Source: an uncultured Flavobacteriales bacterium
Lineage (GTDB): Bacteria > Bacteroidota > Bacteroidia > Flavobacteriales_D > Sanyastnellaceae
Assembly: GCA_938074325.1 (NCBI GenBank)
Contig: CALJFZ010000017.1
Span: forward strand, 62,001 to 126,000
Length of the DNA stretch: 64,000 nucleotides
Direction: 5' to 3'
The position numbers and the translations under genes were made by a program. Positions 460 through 10,819 of the stretch are shown here, piece by piece. Every line of letters starts with the position of its first letter. Position 1 is the stretch's first letter. The notes under the pieces are model-generated. The model did not search any database, was not told the origin of the DNA, and saw only the letters and a list, made by a program, of their open reading frames with translations.

Positions 460-3003
460 TCAGCGGAGCTTGATCGCCTGTTGTGTGCGGCTGCCGAAGG
501 TTCCTTCCGTCCGGATCACGTAGCTTCCTGCTGACCATTCCGACGTGTTGATGGTTTGGCTGATCGGTAGCAATCCCATATGCTCGAACACCTGGCGTCC
601 AGCCATGTCAAAGATGACCACGCTATGGGTGCCTTCAGGCCATGCCACGGAAAGGCTTGCGTTAAACGGGTTGGGAAAGACATTCAGTTCAATTGCCCCT
701 GTTTCCGTCACTGCATTCGGTTCAATCACCTCCTCCTCGGGCAAGATGGAATCCAGGGGAAAACTCATCATGCTTCGGGCAAATGTGCCTGCAATCAGTC
801 GATCGGTAATGGTGTCGGCATCGATGTCATAGACAGGGATGGTCGGCAGGTTCCCGACCGGTTCCCAGTTTGCCCCTCGGTTCAACGTCGCAAAGACTCC
901 TGCATCGGTGGCAACGGTCCAGATGCTGTCGTTGAGTGGCATGATTTGATTCACCGGGTGCTCCGGTAAATCCCCTTGGATGGATTGCCAATCGCCACCA
1001 ATTGCCGCACGGAAGACGAAGGGCGTGTACACCGCATTGCGGTATCCGCTGACGGTACAAAACATGGAGTCGGGATGGTATGGGTCGAATTCAATGTCGG
1101 TGATGAATTGACCAGGTAGCCCAGTCTCCATTGGGTTCCAGGTGGCTCCGTGGTCCTGCGTAATCCATACCCGCCCATCGGTCGTACCCGCGGCTACAAT
1201 GTCTTCACTGAAATGCGATCCTGCCAATGCGCTGACGCAGCGATAGGACAGCCCGGGGTTTTCCGCGTAGGTCAAATCCTCACTTACGGGTTGCCACACA
1301 CTGACCGGGGCATTTTGCATGCGGTAAACACGTTGAGAACCGGTCCACATTTCGTCGGGGTTGGACGGATGATAAATCAACGGTGCATCCCACCACACCC
1401 GATCATCCTCATCAATGCCCGTGGTGAAGTCGTTCCACAAAGGCTCCTCATCTGCTCCCGTTAGGCTGAATCGCCAGTTGCCCCATTGGTAGCCTGCATA
1501 GCGCAAAGCGGGATCAGTGGGGTGAAAAATGGCGGTAAATCCGTCCCCGCCTAGATCGCGGGTCCAGCCGTTCAGGTCTTCGTAGTTGCCTGTGGTGGTG
1601 CCGTTGTCTTGTGCGCCGCCGGTATATGCGCCGGGGTTGTGTGGATTCCATGTAGCGCGGTAAAATTGGGTAACGGGGATGTCCTCGATGTCTTCCCACG
1701 TTTGGCCGTGGTCTTCGGTCTTGTACAATCCTCCGTCCGTGGCCAAAATGCACGTTTGTGACCCCATCCATTGCAGATCGTGTTTATCCGCATGCACCTC
1801 GTACGTCCACCACTCTGGACCCATCAGATTCCACGTGTTACCGCCATTGAGGGAGTTCCAAAGGTTGACACCTAAAATCGTGATGTCGTCGGGATCAAAA
1901 GGATTGATGCGCACCTTGGAGAAATACCAGCCGAAGCCTCCGAGGGCGTTTTCGGGCATGTTTTCTTCAGGGATGACGGCTCCCCAGTTTTCCCCTCCAT
2001 CGGTGGATCGGTAGAGGTTGTCCAATTGGCTGTCTTGTCCGACTACCAGTGCGTAAAGCCCTTGAGAGGAGAGCGCCAAGCCGATCCGTCCACGGCTTCC
2101 TTCTCCCCAAGGGTTGGGCAGTGCTTGCCAATTGAGGCCGGCGTCGTTTGATTTCCAGATTCGGCAGTGCGGGCCCCACACGTCGCTACCCGTTGAATTG
2201 CGCGTTCGCTGCCACGCTGCCGCGTACACCGCTTCGGTATCGGGGTCGTAGAGCAAATCCGTTACGCCTGCAGAGTCATCCGGAAGAAGTACTTGTGACC
2301 AACTGATACCGGCATCTTCACTGCGGAATAATCCCCGGTAATCGTTGGGCTGGGCGGGATTGCCCATCGCCCCAGCGAACAGGACAGGGGCACCGTCCTC
2401 GCCCCCGGGCACAAACAACAACTTGCTGATGATGCCCATGGAGTCGAGCCCCATGTTTTCCCAATTTTCGCCGCCGTCTAAGCTGCGGTAAACTCCATTT
2501 CCAATGCGCGGAAAGCTGCTGATTTGCGGGTCACCAGTCGCCAGGAAGATGCGGTCGGGATTGCCGGGGTAGAAAGCGAGGTCCCCCATCGAAAGGGCCG
2601 GGAAGTCTTCGGTCAACGGCATCCAGTCCCCATTGACGCCCTTCCACAAGCCGCCCGCACTGCTTCCAGCATACAAAGTCGAGGGGTCTTCAGGGTGTTG
2701 GCGAATGAAATTGAACCGTCCGCCGATGTTGGTCGGACCTTCCAGACGCCAATCGCCCTCGATGATCCGTGAAGAGGCTGTGCTGTTGAAATTGTTCTTC
2801 CACCGTTCCACATCATCGAGTACGTGGTCGGTGTGCCAGGCATCCCAATTGGGCTCAGGGTAGGACCATTTCCACGCTTCTGCCTCGAAAGGCTTGAGTT
2901 TTTTGAATGGGTCTGCGGCCGACTCGATGTGTTGATTGCTCCAAGCGAGGTAGGCAAATGCCCCTGCCACGCAGAGGCAAATAGGAACGAAGTATTTCAT
3001 CAT
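460..3003 (-). CDS. Secreted BNR/sortilin-like beta-propeller protein with T9SS type A sorting domain
   Basis: 847 aa; signal-like N-terminus; repeated 'SxDGGENW' / 'SEDAGISW' / 'TEDHGQTWE' BNR motifs; C-terminus 'ELNVFPNPFNASLSVAWPEG...VVIFDMAGRQVFE...SAGSYVIRTEG' is a T9SS type A CTD. Confidence 0.88.
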   Translation of the reverse strand: MMKYFVPICLCVAGAFAYLAWSNQHIESAADPFKKLKPFEAEAWKWSYPEPNWDAWHTDHVLDDVERWKNNFNSTASSRIIEGDWRLEGPTNIGGRFNFIRQHPEDPSTLYAGSSAGGLWKGVNGDWMPLTEDFPALSMGDLAFYPGNPDRIFLATGDPQISSFPRIGNGVYRSLDGGENWENMGLDSMGIISKLLFVPGGEDGAPVLFAGAMGNPAQPNDYRGLFRSEDAGISWSQVLLPDDSAGVTDLLYDPDTEAVYAAAWQRTRNSTGSDVWGPHCRIWKSNDAGLNWQALPNPWGEGSRGRIGLALSSQGLYALVVGQDSQLDNLYRSTDGGENWGAVIPEENMPENALGGFGWYFSKVRINPFDPDDITILGVNLWNSLNGGNTWNLMGPEWWTYEVHADKHDLQWMGSQTCILATDGGLYKTEDHGQTWEDIEDIPVTQFYRATWNPHNPGAYTGGAQDNGTTTGNYEDLNGWTRDLGGDGFTAIFHPTDPALRYAGYQWGNWRFSLTGADEEPLWNDFTTGIDEDDRVWWDAPLIYHPSNPDEMWTGSQRVYRMQNAPVSVWQPVSEDLTYAENPGLSYRCVSALAGSHFSEDIVAAGTTDGRVWITQDHGATWNPMETGLPGQFITDIEFDPYHPDSMFCTVSGYRNAVYTPFVFRAAIGGDWQSIQGDLPEHPVNQIMPLNDSIWTVATDAGVFATLNRGANWEPVGNLPTIPVYDIDADTITDRLIAGTFARSMMSFPLDSILPEEEVIEPNAVTETGAIELNVFPNPFNASLSVAWPEGTHSVVIFDMAGRQVFEHMGLLPISQTINTSEWSAGSYVIRTEGTFGSRTQQAIKLR

Positions 3004-6000
3004 CGAATCAACAGAATGTGGCCTTGTAAAGTTTTGATGTGGTAGGCATCGTCGCGCAGGACCGCTTCGTAGTGGTAAATGCCATCGGGTGCGAAATAGT
3101 CACCTCCTTGCACTTCGCCGACCCAGTATTCCTCTGGGTCTTCGGAAGAAAAGACCAAAGCGCCCCAGCGGTCGTAGATTTTGATTTCGTATCGCGTCAC
3201 CGCTCCGCTGGTGAACATTCTCCAGGCATCGTTGTGGCCGTCATTGTCTGGGGTGAACGCATTGGGGCCAAAGGCATTCAGCCCTTCGTTGAGGTCGACC
3301 AGTAAGCAGGTAAGGGAAGCACATCCAACAGGGTCCACCGCTTCAAGGCAAACCTGGAAGGATTCGGTCCCGATCTCGGGAATGGAGATGCTTTGCGCTG
3401 CTCCCTGCGCAGCAATGGCATCTCCGACGGTCCAATTGTAGGTGTTTGCTGCCACAGAATCAGATGCGTAAAGCTCGAGGATGGGGTGGAAGATGGCAGG
3501 TTGAGCCGGCGCCATCCCGAAAGCAGAACTCGGGGGCTCAGACAAGCACAACAACGTCGCGGCTGTAAACAAATTGGTGCAACCGGCATTGTCCAGTACC
3601 GTGTGTGTCATCTCATAGCAGCCAGGGGTTTCGATGACAAAGATGTTGTCTTCGCACCCCATGGAGGCCCCAACGCCATTTTGGTCATAGGTCCACTGGC
3701 AGTCCACAATGCTGGGGTTTTCAGGCGCCTCGCAGGCAATTACTGCAGGTGCACATCCCGCAATGGGGGTGAAGTCAAATTCAGCAACAGGGAGTGCCAA
3801 GACTTCGACGGCTAGGTCGGTTGTAGTCCCACACGAGCCGGGAATGGTATACGTGACTGTGTGAATGCCTATACCTGCTGTGCCGGGAGAGAACTCTCCT
3901 GACTCCGAGAGGCAATTCCCGCAACTCGCGGTCCATAGCCCCCCGGCCTCGTCCGCCGTTGCCGAGGCGTCGTCGTGATTTTCACAAAACTCTGGGGTTA
4001 GAGCAAATGCACTGCTTGTGTTGGCGGTGACATTGAAATTGGCAGTACCCGAGGAAGGACAAACACCGTCGATGGAATAGGTCAATGTCCACGTACCCAC
4101 GCCGGAAGATTGAGTGTCGAAAACACCTGCGGACGTGCAGCAGTCGCTACAATTAGCAGACCATACGCCACTCGGCGTGTCCGCCGTCAACACGACTTCC
4201 CCTGTGCCTTCACAAAATTCGACATCATCAATGGAGGCGTTGGGCACGGCCCCGATTTCAATGTCCACGGTTGCTGTTTGGGCGCAAGGACTTTCGGACG
4301 TGTAAACCACGTTCACAACGCCCGGAGAGGCATCGGTGGGATCGATTTGTCCATTTCCGCTGAGACAAGTTGCACAACTGGCGCTCCAAATCCCGGCATA
4401 GATGTCATCAGTACTGATGGTCACGGATGCAGCATCGTTGCACAAGAAATCGGGGACTGTCAATGCAATGGGAGTGGGGGCTACGACGGTCACCTCGACT
4501 TGTGCAGGAACCATAGGGCATCCATTGCTTGTACCGTCAAGGATGTATGTTCCGGCATCCGCGGCTGTCGTTGCCGAAATGAAAAACTCATCGCTTGAAT
4601 CCGTCGTGCCATCTGGCAGGGACCATTCCCACACAACAGCATCTGGCACAGACGCCGGCGTCAATGTCAAGGAGCTTCCTTCACAGACCTCAATAGGGTC
4701 CTCATCCAAAGGGGCCGATACGGTTTCGAACACCACCAAGTCGATGACCGCGGGCTGCGAAACGCAGGAGGCTGACTCCACGGTGAGGGTGTATTCTCCA
4801 GCATCTGCTGGGCCCGCGTTGCTGAAAGTGGCGCTGCTGTCGCTGCTGACCAAATTCCCCAGCGCATCTTCCCAAGTCCAGCTGTCAGCTTCTGTGAGCG
4901 CAGTAAAACTCCAATCGTCCCCTTCGCACAGCGGAGGTATGGCTTCAAAATCTGGAACGGGCGGCTGAGGGACCACGAAGAGCTCAAGGGTGTCGGGGGA
5001 GATTTCGCAATCGCCGGCTGTCCCAGACACGATGTACAAGCCCGCATCTGCTTCTGTAAGCGGACCAATTTCAATGGCTTCGCCTGTGTCAGTAAAACCA
5101 TTGGGACCGATCCAATTGTAAGTGGCTTCGTTGATGGGCGAGGCAAACAATTCGGCCACTTCTCCGGCACACAATTGATTGTCGGACGTGTAGGTGGAGT
5201 GCTGGTAATTCGCAAAGTCGCTGAAGTACCCGTAGCGCGTGCCGGAAGAAGCTCCGCCGTTGATGATGCCCAAGTGAAATTTGGCCGAACTGTTGACCAA
5301 GCGGGAGGCCCCGCCGGTCGGGATGAAGCCGGTCCCGGTGATGTTCGCATACATCCAATCGCCGCCCGTGCCGGGAACAGCCGTAAAGTTCACGGCCCCC
5401 ACATTTGCGGCATTTCCATTGAACGTAAAATCCCCTTCCGAACCAGCCGGTACGATGATTTTCATCCCTATGAAGTCGTTGCTGGAACGCACAAAGGCCA
5501 CCTCATCGGATCCGGTGCACGTGATGGGCGGGAGGATAGCGCCACCCACCTCACATCCAAAGCCGGTAAGGTGCAGTGCGAGCACCGGTGCGCTTGTCTC
5601 ATAAAAGGCAGCTGGATTCGCTAGCGTGTGGGAGTAGGTTTCCCCCGCATCGATGGTCCAAACGTAGGTTCCGTTGATGGAAATGCTCGTGTTGTCCTCC
5701 GTACCGACAATGAATACCTTGTCCGCACCGTTGAGGTTGCCTTTCACGGCAATGTATGTGTCACCTGCAACCGCGACGGGAATGATTTGATCTCCCAATA
5801 GATCCAAGCAATTGCCAGGTGGGTAGGGAGTGCCTTGAATGCTGTCATCGCTAACGGTGATGGCGATGGGTGCAGTGCTCGTTACATAGGTGCCAGATGG
5901 ATGCTGATTGGCGGCGGCATTGGCCGCGCGCAATGCATAGGTCTCGCCTTCATCCAATGTTATGGTGAACGGTGTACCGGCAGGATATCCCCCGAGGTTG

Positions 6001-6539
6001 GTTGTCGGAACGATGGTGATTTCTGTGTTGTCCTCGGTGGCGACGATGTCAAAACCTGCTTTGGATTGGGTATAGCCGTTGGCGAGGTAATTCTGAAATG
6101 GCACATAGAATTCATCGCCCAAAGCAGAGGAGCCCTTGAGCGCAAAAATGTCGGGATTCAAATTGTGGTTGACCTCGTAGTACGCCGTCACCGGGTTGTC
6201 AGAAGTGATGTGGATCCCTTGCAGTAAAACGGTATTGAAGGGCTTGTTTTCAATGTCATCCAACCAAGGGGTCAGGTCCAAGGTTTGAGTGCCGTTGGCT
6301 GGAATGTTCAGGGTTTGGGTCGGGAAGGCGGGGTTCGCGGGTTGCTCCACTGTGACTGTCGCCGCATTGGCCAAGGTCGAGAATCGCAAGAGGATGGGTT
6401 GGTCTCCGTGGTTGGCCCACACTTCCGGGGCGGCGAACCAGAATTCAGTATCCAGCTGGCAAAATGCAGTGGGAAGGGATAATGTCAGCCACGCACTCAG
6501 TGCGACAAGCGTTTGTACGATACGTCGGGTCATGTGCAA
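3000..6539 (-). CDS. Giant secreted IgGFc-binding-like protein with PKD/Ig-like repeats and gliding-motility-associated (T9SS type B) C-terminal domain
   Basis: 1179 aa; signal peptide; N-terminal 'DTEFWFAAPEVWANHGDQPILLRFSTLANAATVTVEQPANPAFPTQ'; C-terminal 'FGPNAFTPDNDGHNDAWRMF...YEIKIYDRWGALVFSS...YFAPDGIYHYEAVLRD' typical of type B CTD. Confidence 0.87.
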   Translation of the reverse strand: MHMTRRIVQTLVALSAWLTLSLPTAFCQLDTEFWFAAPEVWANHGDQPILLRFSTLANAATVTVEQPANPAFPTQTLNIPANGTQTLDLTPWLDDIENKPFNTVLLQGIHITSDNPVTAYYEVNHNLNPDIFALKGSSALGDEFYVPFQNYLANGYTQSKAGFDIVATEDNTEITIVPTTNLGGYPAGTPFTITLDEGETYALRAANAAANQHPSGTYVTSTAPIAITVSDDSIQGTPYPPGNCLDLLGDQIIPVAVAGDTYIAVKGNLNGADKVFIVGTEDNTSISINGTYVWTIDAGETYSHTLANPAAFYETSAPVLALHLTGFGCEVGGAILPPITCTGSDEVAFVRSSNDFIGMKIIVPAGSEGDFTFNGNAANVGAVNFTAVPGTGGDWMYANITGTGFIPTGGASRLVNSSAKFHLGIINGGASSGTRYGYFSDFANYQHSTYTSDNQLCAGEVAELFASPINEATYNWIGPNGFTDTGEAIEIGPLTEADAGLYIVSGTAGDCEISPDTLELFVVPQPPVPDFEAIPPLCEGDDWSFTALTEADSWTWEDALGNLVSSDSSATFSNAGPADAGEYTLTVESASCVSQPAVIDLVVFETVSAPLDEDPIEVCEGSSLTLTPASVPDAVVWEWSLPDGTTDSSDEFFISATTAADAGTYILDGTSNGCPMVPAQVEVTVVAPTPIALTVPDFLCNDAASVTISTDDIYAGIWSASCATCLSGNGQIDPTDASPGVVNVVYTSESPCAQTATVDIEIGAVPNASIDDVEFCEGTGEVVLTADTPSGVWSANCSDCCTSAGVFDTQSSGVGTWTLTYSIDGVCPSSGTANFNVTANTSSAFALTPEFCENHDDASATADEAGGLWTASCGNCLSESGEFSPGTAGIGIHTVTYTIPGSCGTTTDLAVEVLALPVAEFDFTPIAGCAPAVIACEAPENPSIVDCQWTYDQNGVGASMGCEDNIFVIETPGCYEMTHTVLDNAGCTNLFTAATLLCLSEPPSSAFGMAPAQPAIFHPILELYASDSVAANTYNWTVGDAIAAQGAAQSISIPEIGTESFQVCLEAVDPVGCASLTCLLVDLNEGLNAFGPNAFTPDNDGHNDAWRMFTSGAVTRYEIKIYDRWGALVFSSEDPEEYWVGEVQGGDYFAPDGIYHYEAVLRDDAYHIKTLQGHILLIR

Positions 6540-6554
6540 TTCGAAATCGATGCC

Positions 6555-7421
6555 TCAGCGCTTGGTTGTAGCCATTAAAAACCAATGCGATTCGAAGATA
6601 TGGGGAATACTGATGCTACCCAATAACATGAAAAAGGCTCCGTACGTTGCATTGGAAAAAAACATTTCTGGACGCCCCAATCCGACAATTCCCACACCCA
6701 TGAGCACGACCGCTCCAAGGGTGAAAGGCGCCGCCTTCCACCACAGCGCCTTCGATGACCACCCCAGCCGTGTTTGAAGGTGGTGCCAGCCAGAAGCGCT
6801 GTGTTGACCGATGAAGTACAGACCGAAGCTCAACAGCACCGGAATCCATGGCGTCACCGCGATCAAGAGGATGGTCAAAAGCCAATCCCAGTTGCGCAGT
6901 CGAAGGGCTGCAATGGTGCAGGCAATCAGGCCAGCCGTGGATGCAAGTTGAAAGGTGGTTTCCAAATCTGAAACGTTCAGCTGTGCCGATTCTGTTACCC
7001 CCATTTGTTCGATAATGGGCAAGACCTCGTCCAAATGCCAAACCAAGATGGTGCCCAGCGCGATTGCTCCCCAGGTAAAATGACCTCGGGTGATGCCCCA
7101 CAGGGTGAAGTCCGCTTGGCCGAAATGCCATGCACTCAAGCCCAGGAATAATAACAGTCCAGCATGGGGAAACGTATGCCAACCGAGGAGGATCACACCG
7201 ATGCACGCGAGGTAGCCCACGATGTACGATGCATTTCGACCCGGAGAACGCGCTTCGTGGGTCCACACATCCAAGGCGCCGTGTGGAATGCCAATTGCCG
7301 CCAAACCCAACACGAGCAGCCCGCCCAAAGCCTCGTCAGCCCCGGCCGGTCCGAGTGCATTCCAACAGATGTATAGCACAGCCGTTAGGAGCAGCACTAC
7401 CGGTCGCAGATACGCGTTCAT
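6555..7421 (-). CDS. blh: Brp/Blh family beta-carotene 15,15'-dioxygenase (retinal-forming)
   Basis: 288 aa polytopic membrane protein; 'IGIPHGALDVWTHE', 'LSAWHFGQADF', 'YFIGQHSASGWHHL' and 'SISIPHIFESHW' match the His-containing motifs of the Brp/Blh family. Confidence 0.85.
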   Translation of the reverse strand: MNAYLRPVVLLLTAVLYICWNALGPAGADEALGGLLVLGLAAIGIPHGALDVWTHEARSPGRNASYIVGYLACIGVILLGWHTFPHAGLLLFLGLSAWHFGQADFTLWGITRGHFTWGAIALGTILVWHLDEVLPIIEQMGVTESAQLNVSDLETTFQLASTAGLIACTIAALRLRNWDWLLTILLIAVTPWIPVLLSFGLYFIGQHSASGWHHLQTRLGWSSKALWWKAAPFTLGAVVLMGVGIVGLGRPEMFFSNATYGAFFMLLGSISIPHIFESHWFLMATTKR

Positions 7422-10400
7422 CGAACCAAAGTTAGGCTGCCCACCAATTGAATCGGGCCGGGCTCTGTGTAGGTGGCGGTGCCATGTTCATCCGTCACGG
7501 TCAGGTCTCCACTCACCCGATTGATCAGTACCTCGTAGTAATAGGTGCCTTCTGAGGCTTCCTCCAGATTGGGCTCCCAACCAGCGGCATTTCCAAAATC
7601 GCTGGATGTGTAAACCGTTTGGCCCCAGCGGTTGTAGATGCGGCACGTACTGGATGGGAAATAGGTCAGATCTGGCAAGGCAAAACGCTCGTTTTGAGCG
7701 TCTTGATTCGGCGAGATGATGTTGGGGACAATCAACTCGCACAGTACGGTTTCCACTTCGAAACTTCCAGTGGCCGTGAGGTTGCAAGGTGCTCCGGTGT
7801 TGAGGTAAGCGGTGTACAATCCGTCTTCCATGGCCACCATGGCAGGTCCACTGCCGAAGTCAATGGTGTTTTCTTCCTCGTCGGTAAATGTCCAATTCAC
7901 ATTGTACAGGGGGTCCCACTCTGGTAAGTCCAAAGCAGGCGTGTGGTCCGGGCAGTGGTCGATTTGGATGGTCGAAAAGTCCTGTGCCTGTACTTCCGGT
8001 AGTGGAACAACGGTCAAGGTGCCTGAAGCAATAGGCGAAGGACAATTGGATTCGAGCACATAGGCCTCGTACATGCCGTTCGCTCCGAGCGGTACGTCGA
8101 TGAATGACCAGGTTGTCCCTTCGTGATTGCCCCAGAATGGGTGGAACCAGAGAATGGTGCCGTTTCCAGCGGTCGTGCCGGATAGACTCCAATCCGAGCC
8201 TTCGCAGATTTCGTCAAAACCAGTCAGCACCGGAGGGGCTGGAGTGGGGTAGACCTCGAGGTACACAGAGTCTGGATTCATCGGGCACGTCCCGACAGCG
8301 CCGTTTACGGTGTACCATCCGCTTTCGTCGGGCTGGGCATTGAACAGCGAAACGCTTTGGTCAGTCGCACTCATGTTCTCCGGTCCCGTCCAGTTCCAAT
8401 TCGTTCCGTCCGGACCTGCGCCGAAGATTTCCCATGCGTCTCCTTGACATATTTGATCGCTGTCGATGGGATCACCATTGGCATCGATCACCTCTAAATC
8501 TTGAGGCGGGACCAAGTCAAATACAAATGCGACCGGATCTGCAGCACAGCCATTGAATGCCACCGATACAGTGTACGCTTGAGCATCCTCCCAATTGGCA
8601 CTGTCAATCTGCCAAGGATTGCCGAACCCCAGCGTATCACCGGAGGCGTTCATCCAGATAATGTCTGCTCCGCCGTCCGATGTGAAATCCGCGGTAAAGG
8701 TTGCTTCATTGCCCAAGCAGACAGCGGGTGCATTCACCCCGTTCACAATCGGGTTAGGGACGACCTCCATCCACACAGAGTCCGGCACCAAGGGGCAATC
8801 AGATGCTTGGCCGGAAACGGTATACCAGCCTGAATCGTCCGGTTGCGCATTGGTAACTTGCATACCCGATTGGTTGCTTGCCTGCGTGCCGTCGGGACCT
8901 GACCAAGCATAAGATGCCCCGGCGATGGCCCCTGCTTCGAGCGTGAATGCTTCGCCTTGGCACAGACTCTCGTTCGTTGCTGAGATGCTCAGTGCCTGTT
9001 CCGGCGTGACCGCAACGTCCCACAAGGCGGGTTGCGACAAGCAACCGTGGTCGTTGATGACCAATGTGTAGGTGCCTTCGTGTTCCATAGTGGCAGAGGA
9101 CTCCAGGATGGATTCTTGGCTGGGATAGAAGCCGTCTGGGCCGGACCATTGGTACTGAACCGTTTCTAGGGTGTCTGTCCACAACATCAATGGTGCCCCC
9201 TCGCATACCACGGAGTCTCCTGAGATGGTCGGTGTTTCTGGGAAGGGATACACCAACAAATTCAGGGTGTCGTTTTCAATGGGGCAAGAACCAACAAAGC
9301 CACTGACGATGTACTCGCCGGCATCTGCCATATTGACCTGGCCGAACGGATAGGGATTGCCCTGGGCGGTGAAACCGTTGGGCCCGGTCCAATCGTACGT
9401 CGCACCGAGCAGCAAATTGGACTCCAAATTGAGCTCGTCTCCATCGCACAGCGTATTATCATCGACTTGGACCACGTAAGCCTGCGCAGCGTAGTTGCTG
9501 AAATACCCGTAGCGCGTGCCGGAGGAGGCGCCTCCGTTGATGATGCCCAAATGGAACACCGACGTGGAGTTGTAGAGCCGCGAAGCCGCGAGTTGGGGAA
9601 CGAAACCTGAGCCTGTGATGTTCGCGTATTTCCATGCGCCATCCGTGCCGGGGACGTCGCTGAATTGGCTGGCGACGATCTGGTCGGGGTCTCCATTGAA
9701 TTCAAAATCATCTTCGCCTCCATCGGGCACGAGGATTTTGAGGCCCATGAATTCGTTGGTAGAACGGATGAAAGCCACTTCTTGTGATCCCGTGCAGACG
9801 ATGGGAGGGAGCAGCGCTCCGCCCACCTCGCAACCAAACCCGGTGAGGTGTAGAGCGTAAACCGGTGCGCTTGCTTCATAATAGGCGGCGGTTGCGTAGA
9901 GGGTATGGGAGTATATGGAAGTTAGGTTTGTCAAGGTGGTCACCACATTTCCATTGACTGAAATGGTGGTGTTCGGCTCGGTCGGAATGAAGAAGACCTT
10001 GTCGGGGCCGTTCAGGTTGCCCTTGATGGCAATGTATTCTGTGCCCACGATGTCTGCTGGGACGATTTGGTCTCCAAACAAATCGGCACATCCGCCGTAG
10101 GGAGTGCCATTCAATGAATCATCGCTGATGGTGATGGCAATGGGTTTGTCGGAATTGACAACCGTGCCGAAGGGGTGCTGGCTCGCCGCCGTGGAAGTTG
10201 CCCGCCCGCTCCAGGTCTCACCGGCATCCAACGTAATGGTGAAGGTAACGTTCTGTGCGTGGCCCACGATGGGTTTCCGCGGGGTGATTTCAATGGTTGT
10301 GTTGTCCTCGGTTGCAACAATATCAAAGCCCGACGGACTCTGTGTGTACCCGTTGTTGAGGTAATTCTGCAGGGGGATGAAGAAGTTGGTTCCCAGGGCG

Positions 10401-10819
10401 TTGCCTCCTTTCAAGGCGTAAATATCTGGATTCAGATTATTGGAAGGATTCACCTCGTAATAGGCTTGGATCAGCGTCGTTGACGTGATGCGTATGCCCT
10501 TATTCAAGACGGTGTTTGGGGGCTTGTTTTCAACCTGGTACAGCCAAGGTGCCAAATTCAACGAGGAGACACTGTTGGCAGGCACGCTGATGGTCTGGGT
10601 GGGAAAACCGGCGTTGGCGGGCTGTTCGACCGTTACAATCGCGGATTGGTCAAACGTTGCGAAACGCAGCAGGGTAGGGCTGTCCCCGTGATTGGCCCAT
10701 ACCTCGGGAGCTACAAACCAAAACTCCGTATCCACTTGCGCATGAGCAGGCGTGGCGAGTCCTATCCACAGGCCGAGGACGACCAGTCCTACCAAACGGA
10801 TTGTGCGTGTAGAATTCAA
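7418..10819 (-). CDS. Giant secreted IgGFc-binding-like protein with Ig-like/PKD repeats and T9SS type B C-terminal domain (paralogue of 3000-6539)
   Basis: 1133 aa; N-terminal ~480 aa clearly homologous to the 3000-6539 product ('VDTEFWFVAPEVWANHGDSPTLLRFATF...VTVEQPANAGFPTQTISVPANS'); C-terminal 'IISPNQDAQNERFALPDLTYFPSSTCRIYNRWGQTVYTSS...EGTYYYEVLIN'. Confidence 0.87.
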   Translation of the reverse strand: MNSTRTIRLVGLVVLGLWIGLATPAHAQVDTEFWFVAPEVWANHGDSPTLLRFATFDQSAIVTVEQPANAGFPTQTISVPANSVSSLNLAPWLYQVENKPPNTVLNKGIRITSTTLIQAYYEVNPSNNLNPDIYALKGGNALGTNFFIPLQNYLNNGYTQSPSGFDIVATEDNTTIEITPRKPIVGHAQNVTFTITLDAGETWSGRATSTAASQHPFGTVVNSDKPIAITISDDSLNGTPYGGCADLFGDQIVPADIVGTEYIAIKGNLNGPDKVFFIPTEPNTTISVNGNVVTTLTNLTSIYSHTLYATAAYYEASAPVYALHLTGFGCEVGGALLPPIVCTGSQEVAFIRSTNEFMGLKILVPDGGEDDFEFNGDPDQIVASQFSDVPGTDGAWKYANITGSGFVPQLAASRLYNSTSVFHLGIINGGASSGTRYGYFSNYAAQAYVVQVDDNTLCDGDELNLESNLLLGATYDWTGPNGFTAQGNPYPFGQVNMADAGEYIVSGFVGSCPIENDTLNLLVYPFPETPTISGDSVVCEGAPLMLWTDTLETVQYQWSGPDGFYPSQESILESSATMEHEGTYTLVINDHGCLSQPALWDVAVTPEQALSISATNESLCQGEAFTLEAGAIAGASYAWSGPDGTQASNQSGMQVTNAQPDDSGWYTVSGQASDCPLVPDSVWMEVVPNPIVNGVNAPAVCLGNEATFTADFTSDGGADIIWMNASGDTLGFGNPWQIDSANWEDAQAYTVSVAFNGCAADPVAFVFDLVPPQDLEVIDANGDPIDSDQICQGDAWEIFGAGPDGTNWNWTGPENMSATDQSVSLFNAQPDESGWYTVNGAVGTCPMNPDSVYLEVYPTPAPPVLTGFDEICEGSDWSLSGTTAGNGTILWFHPFWGNHEGTTWSFIDVPLGANGMYEAYVLESNCPSPIASGTLTVVPLPEVQAQDFSTIQIDHCPDHTPALDLPEWDPLYNVNWTFTDEEENTIDFGSGPAMVAMEDGLYTAYLNTGAPCNLTATGSFEVETVLCELIVPNIISPNQDAQNERFALPDLTYFPSSTCRIYNRWGQTVYTSSDFGNAAGWEPNLEEASEGTYYYEVLINRVSGDLTVTDEHGTATYTEPGPIQLVGSLTLVR

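Follow-up and report, generated by a model that had tools for sequence, protein, structure and literature searches.

The window, by which we mean the whole 64,000-nucleotide stretch of DNA that was analysed, contains one tight minus-strand run of four genes, whose open reading frames give the transcription order A, blh, C, D (Table 1). The start of blh overlaps the stop of A, and the stop of C overlaps the start of D at positions 3000-3003; the reading frames, strands and both overlaps (7418-7421 and 3000-3003) agree with the original prediction. The 15-bp distance between blh and C that it also gave holds if gene C starts at the listed TTG (6539). An in-frame ATG (6533) precedes the signal peptide, and this start, which would widen the gap to 21 bp, is at least as likely. 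The listed start of gene A is a TTG as well.

Table 1. Genes and junctions of the blh gene run (positions in the window)
Feature	Position	Strand	Description
Gene A	7418..10819	minus	Secreted surface protein, 1133 aa; PF17517, Ig-like and CHU_C type IX C-terminal signal
A/blh overlap	7418..7421	minus	ATGA: stop of A (TGA) and start of blh (ATG)
blh (Blh1 type)	6555..7421	minus	Brp/Blh β-carotene 15,15'-dioxygenase (predicted), 288 aa, multi-helix membrane protein
blh-C gap	6534..6554	minus	21 bp to ATG at 6533; 15 bp to TTG at 6539
Gene C	3000..6539	minus	Paralog of A, 1179 aa; PF17517, Ig-like and T9SS type B C-terminal domain
Gene D	460..3003	minus	BNR/sortilin-type β-propeller protein, 847 aa; T9SS type A sorting domain

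Family profiles place sorting domains of the type IX secretion system (T9SS) at the C-termini of the three neighbours of Blh (CHU_C in A and C, Por_Secre_tail in D), by which A, C and D are predicted to be type IX-secreted proteins. PF17517, found in both A and C, is the IgGFc_binding family. The TIGR04131 score lies above the cut-off for C and below it for A. That A and C may be adhesins, as they had been labelled, is suggested by their domains. No terminator-like site was found in the blh-C gap, a scan of the run for promoters and terminators gave matches no more numerous than in shuffled sequence, and a simple pattern search detected no Bacteroidota-type promoter upstream of A. From the overlaps, the gaps and the conservation described below, we infer a single A-blh-C-D transcript.

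The blh product is most likely a working dioxygenase

Blh enzymes cleave β-carotene to form retinal, the chromophore of rhodopsins. The product of blh in the window matched PF15461 with 106.9 bits (cut-off 28) and TIGR03753 with 118.5 bits (cut-off 95.25). Its 288 amino acids carry the BCD domain only, without an N-terminal PF05834 cyclase domain. The structure model is all-helical (13 helices, mean pLDDT 93.1), as in a polytopic membrane protein, and no related solved structure was found by sequence or fold search. Four histidines, H47, H99, H207 and H274, are invariant in 41/41 aligned Blh sequences. In Blh of strain 66A03, activity depends critically on His21, His78, His188 and His192 (PMC9227343). 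Three of these residues matched in the Blh of the window when they were mapped by spacing only, without the 66A03 sequence; the position of His192, mapped in the same way, is a Gly here and is His in none of 72 aligned relatives.

The dN/dS ratio of blh in six pairs was 0.10-0.18, which places the gene clearly under purifying selection; these values are mostly above those of the neighbouring genes, and the Blh protein changes faster than the products of the crt genes. A recent foreign origin was rejected on composition, as GC and GC3 of blh equal those of its neighbours. Judged from sequence, blh is most likely a working gene for a retinal-forming dioxygenase.

The A-blh-C arrangement is conserved in the genus

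Next to the source genome we considered the other members of its genus, 22 genomes in all, of which 11 are of high quality. A-blh-C was complete in 12 of the 22 species. The edge of a 13th case is seen in G007, where the last 30 codons of blh stand before C at the start of a contig (L154); the assemblies of G008 and G018 break at the A-C site, and G017 gave no match to it. Wherever the flanks were assembled, the setting was constant, with NucPhos/cdd/NupC/deoA beyond A and D beyond C. The same gene order in 12 species with complete junctions is more than chance, and the agreement of these 12 separate species assemblies rules out an assembly artefact or chimera. Synteny in relatives, which the original prediction had proposed to examine, thus contradicts the possibility that the arrangement is unique to one assembly, and the original observation holds more strongly than it was first put.

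The ATGA overlap between A and blh was kept in all 12 complete junctions, whereas at the C/D junction the genus shows anything from overlapping genes to a spacing of about 20 bases. As the identity of Blh1 falls to about 44% among the blh-bearing species, the arrangement with its intact overlap has outlived a deep divergence. Overlaps of the ATGA type permit translational re-initiation, and the coupling of blh to its upstream gene that had been predicted is supported by this conservation; re-initiation at the junction is the putative mechanism.

In many members of the genus an acetyl-CoA synthetase-like gene (acs) lies upstream of A (L077:12967-14892, with equivalents in L075, L082, L083, L089, L092, L095 and L100). 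The acs-A junction is a 4-base overlap in several relatives, indicating that overlaps of this kind are usual among these genes. The acs gene is missing from this place in G000 (the source genome), G006, G009, G010, G016 and G021.

The site between A and C holds blh, a transporter gene or nothing

The blh-bearing species group together in a concatenated tree and in the trees of A and C, and six species (G005, G012, G014, G015, G019 and G020), which form the sister clade, stand apart from them in these trees. A and C are reciprocally monophyletic, so that their duplication took place before the genus divided. Two sister-clade species, G005 and G014, have an empty gap of about 90-120 bp between A and C, and the gap is filled by a SulP transporter gene (PF00916 with a STAS domain) in G012, G015, G019 and G020. 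The gap between A and C is thus a real insertion point, and the proposed insertion between tandem duplicates is well supported, with the junction holding blh, SulP or nothing depending on the species. Since G005 nests among the SulP carriers, with modest support, a loss of SulP in this species is likely. The SulP/STAS gene at the spot of blh can be seen at L090:10361-12091 and also in L091, L092 and L093.

Five of the six sister-clade species (not G014) carry a distant blh elsewhere in the genome, about 25% identical, and a single clade for all Blh proteins of the genus was strongly rejected (p-AU 6e-7). Wherever its locus is intact, this second type of blh stands alone and converges on another T9SS gene; the link of blh to surface proteins is therefore not general. 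In G015 the gene (L009 / L072) contains two in-frame stops, one TAG and one TAA, and is either decayed or affected by an assembly error. Neither blh nor rhodopsin was detected in G014. Its gene A (L096 8065-8184) ends in CGATGATGTGA, in which a two-codon frame comes after the ATGA; this may be what remains of a blh since lost, or it may have arisen by chance.

Rhodopsin and carotenoid genes lie elsewhere

The absence of rhodopsin and carotenoid genes around blh, as originally noted, holds for the window. It does not extend further: there is a rhodopsin in the source genome and a carotenoid cluster in the genus. In the assembly of G000 (59 contigs, 88% complete), exactly one blh was detected, on contig C17, and one rhodopsin, on contig C21, situated between maf and selD and not adjoining blh. 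At the proton-pump positions this rhodopsin carries D-T-E, and its residue 105 (green proteorhodopsin numbering) is Met. In every genus member in which both neighbours could be read, rhodopsin is flanked by maf and selD, and blh is not adjacent to it. It was not found in two blh-bearing genomes, G006 (95% complete) and G001 (73%). In the rhodopsin-bearing genomes of the blh-bearing clade, the blh of the A-C site is the only one found. Identity to the G000 rhodopsin reaches 98-99% in several other species but, unexpectedly, is about 79-80% in G010 (L105) and G013 (L108), whose rhodopsins also lie at maf/selD; this suggests allele replacement at one site.

The search for crtB and crtY, proposed together with that for rhodopsin, had a different outcome in the source genome: neither PF00494 (phytoene synthase) nor PF05834 (CrtY) was found in G000. 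In the genus, crtB is present in 18 of 22 members, including 11/11 high-quality genomes, and belongs to a cluster of crtI-, crtB-, idi-, crtD-, cruF-, crtZ- and crtYcd-like genes, named from a reading of their sequences. Contig C12 of G000 starts inside an exonuclease gene (cut at base 3) that borders the crt cluster in G010, so that the cluster of G000 most likely falls in an assembly gap. With crtB in all high-quality relatives and the contig break at the cluster border, we rejected a missing pathway compensated by scavenged β-carotene.

Probable origin from a lycopene cyclase-Blh fusion

The other genera of the family usually have blh next to rhodopsin. Outside the genus, the family genomes that were searched contained no PF15461 match in the neighbourhood of one to PF17517; the two occur on a common contig only in G069, at a distance of about 200 kb. 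Relatives for the Blh tree were sought among 84,980 GTDB species genomes. All 33 non-genus relatives of the window's Blh that were found and placed in the tree are frames of 646-683 aa, and 12/12 fusion-sized proteins scanned (non-genus and family) have a PF05834 lycopene cyclase before the Blh domain. Many of the fusions lie directly behind rhodopsin.

In a mixture-model tree the Blh1 group joins the G045 fusion at 100/100 and is nested inside the fusions, and the first residue of Blh1 coincides with the point at which, in the fusions, the tail of the cyclase gives way to the first helix of Blh. Taken together, the nesting and the start at a domain boundary make fission of a fusion the simplest reading, and the Blh of the window is probably the Blh half of a CrtY-Blh fusion that was split off. 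Forcing the fusions into one clade apart from Blh1 cost 42.8 log units and was only weakly rejected (p-AU 0.027). The tree contains long branches and its root is uncertain, which leaves some room for a non-fused ancestor.

Fusions of PF05834 and PF15461, about 650-680 aa long, are widespread in Bacteroidota (L119-L151 and L219-L223), for example L119:1824-3839 and L125:6741-8756, and they often directly follow rhodopsin. We found no description of CrtY-Blh fusions in Bacteroidota in the literature searched, which covered few subscription journals.

Discussion

We consider it likely that blh was captured by an operon of type IX-secreted surface proteins and serves rhodopsin as its retinal-forming enzyme. 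The locus is thus best read as a retinal-forming enzyme of the usual kind whose gene occupies a new and conserved position in the genome. In the ancestor of one clade, the Blh half of a probable lycopene cyclase-Blh fusion would have been placed between A and C, already old paralogs by then, its start codon falling on the stop of A, so that ribosomes ending A could restart on blh. Blh would then make retinal from β-carotene supplied by the separate crt cluster with its CrtYcd-type cyclase, and this retinal would load the proton-pumping rhodopsin encoded elsewhere (maf-rhodopsin-selD). Three observations count against parts of this reading: no rhodopsin was found in G006 and G001, the residue mapped to His192 is not a His, and 4-base overlaps occur at the acs-A junction too. 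In this group of uncultured marine Flavobacteriales the gene for retinal synthesis has parted from that of the light-driven pump and, in at least 12 species, lies with an overlapping start among genes for secreted surface proteins, which makes it probable that a component of the phototrophic apparatus is produced jointly with proteins of the cell surface.

Enzyme and operon each belong to a known type. Nothing in the literature searched described this location, how strictly it is conserved or the probable passage from fusion to split gene. In marine Flavobacteriia, rhodopsin and blh are 'often adjacently coded' (PMC5932025). As in that pair, rhodopsin and a retinal-forming Blh family member occur here in one genome, but the blh of the window lies away from rhodopsin and overlaps a T9SS cargo gene. 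The closest relative of its product is the Blh domain of the CrtY-Blh fusions (GTDB, L119-L151; genera g3, g7, g12 and g14 of the family), from which it differs in having no cyclase domain, the genus having a CrtYcd-type cyclase instead. A quadrifunctional carotenoid-enzyme fusion with a C-terminal Blh domain is known from Thecamonas trahens (PMC10016063). It resembles the CrtY-Blh fusions in joining Blh to carotenoid enzymes, and differs in being eukaryotic, in its CrtYcd-type cyclase and in combining four enzymes in one protein. By their domains, A and C are ordinary members of the PF17517/CHU_C type IX-secreted proteins of Bacteroidota, but here they form a tandem pair that encloses the gene of an inner-membrane enzyme.

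Whereas blh is generally sought beside rhodopsin, in this genus the rhodopsin gene, the carotenoid genes and blh each have a separate location, and surveys inferring retinal synthesis from rhodopsin neighbourhoods would miss such genomes. A phototrophy kit can therefore be split, placed in an unrelated operon and kept there over a deep divergence. In addition, one site between paralogs offers a series of states (empty, SulP, blh), and a fusion of two enzymes seems to have come apart again.

Within capture by the operon, the chances seem to us evenly balanced that blh is a neutral passenger, which happened to enter an expressed operon that tolerated it, has stayed there, and is co-expressed without function. 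To the accompanying idea, that the ATGA was kept since blh has no other start or promoter, we give the same even weight. Both agree with a sister clade whose A-C gap holds an unrelated SulP gene or nothing and whose different blh stands alone, and with rhodopsin and crt genes outside the operon; the retention of the arrangement and of all 12 overlaps while Blh1 diverged to about 44% identity argues against a mere passenger.

Functional co-regulation, in which the supply of retinal is tied to type IX cargo and proton motive force is the common factor, is plausible, though we consider it unlikely. Its rationale is that the proton motive force drives both type IX export and gliding and would be raised in the light by a retinal-loaded rhodopsin. 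The conserved coupling and the D-T-E proton-pump type of the rhodopsin are in line with it, as are type IX motors, which are proton-driven (PMC8986121). However, the enzyme is needed in small amounts, and we favour the passenger over co-regulation because in the sister clade the gap took an unrelated SulP gene and blh lies outside any surface-protein operon. Similarly doubtful is the fuller claim that the rhodopsin kit was dismantled and retinal synthesis, by an enzyme from a split fusion, was wired, through the kept overlap of start and stop, into an operon of cargo for the proton-driven T9SS; if true, light-driven proton pumping would be enabled together with type IX cargo.

We regard it as very improbable that Blh has another substrate or role, for example the cleavage of another carotenoid, and does not serve rhodopsin: its faster change relative to the crt products and the two blh-bearing genomes in which rhodopsin was not detected (G006 and G001) point that way, but it is the sole Blh found in the rhodopsin-bearing genomes of its clade, all the invariant residues are kept and many of its fusion relatives adjoin rhodopsin.
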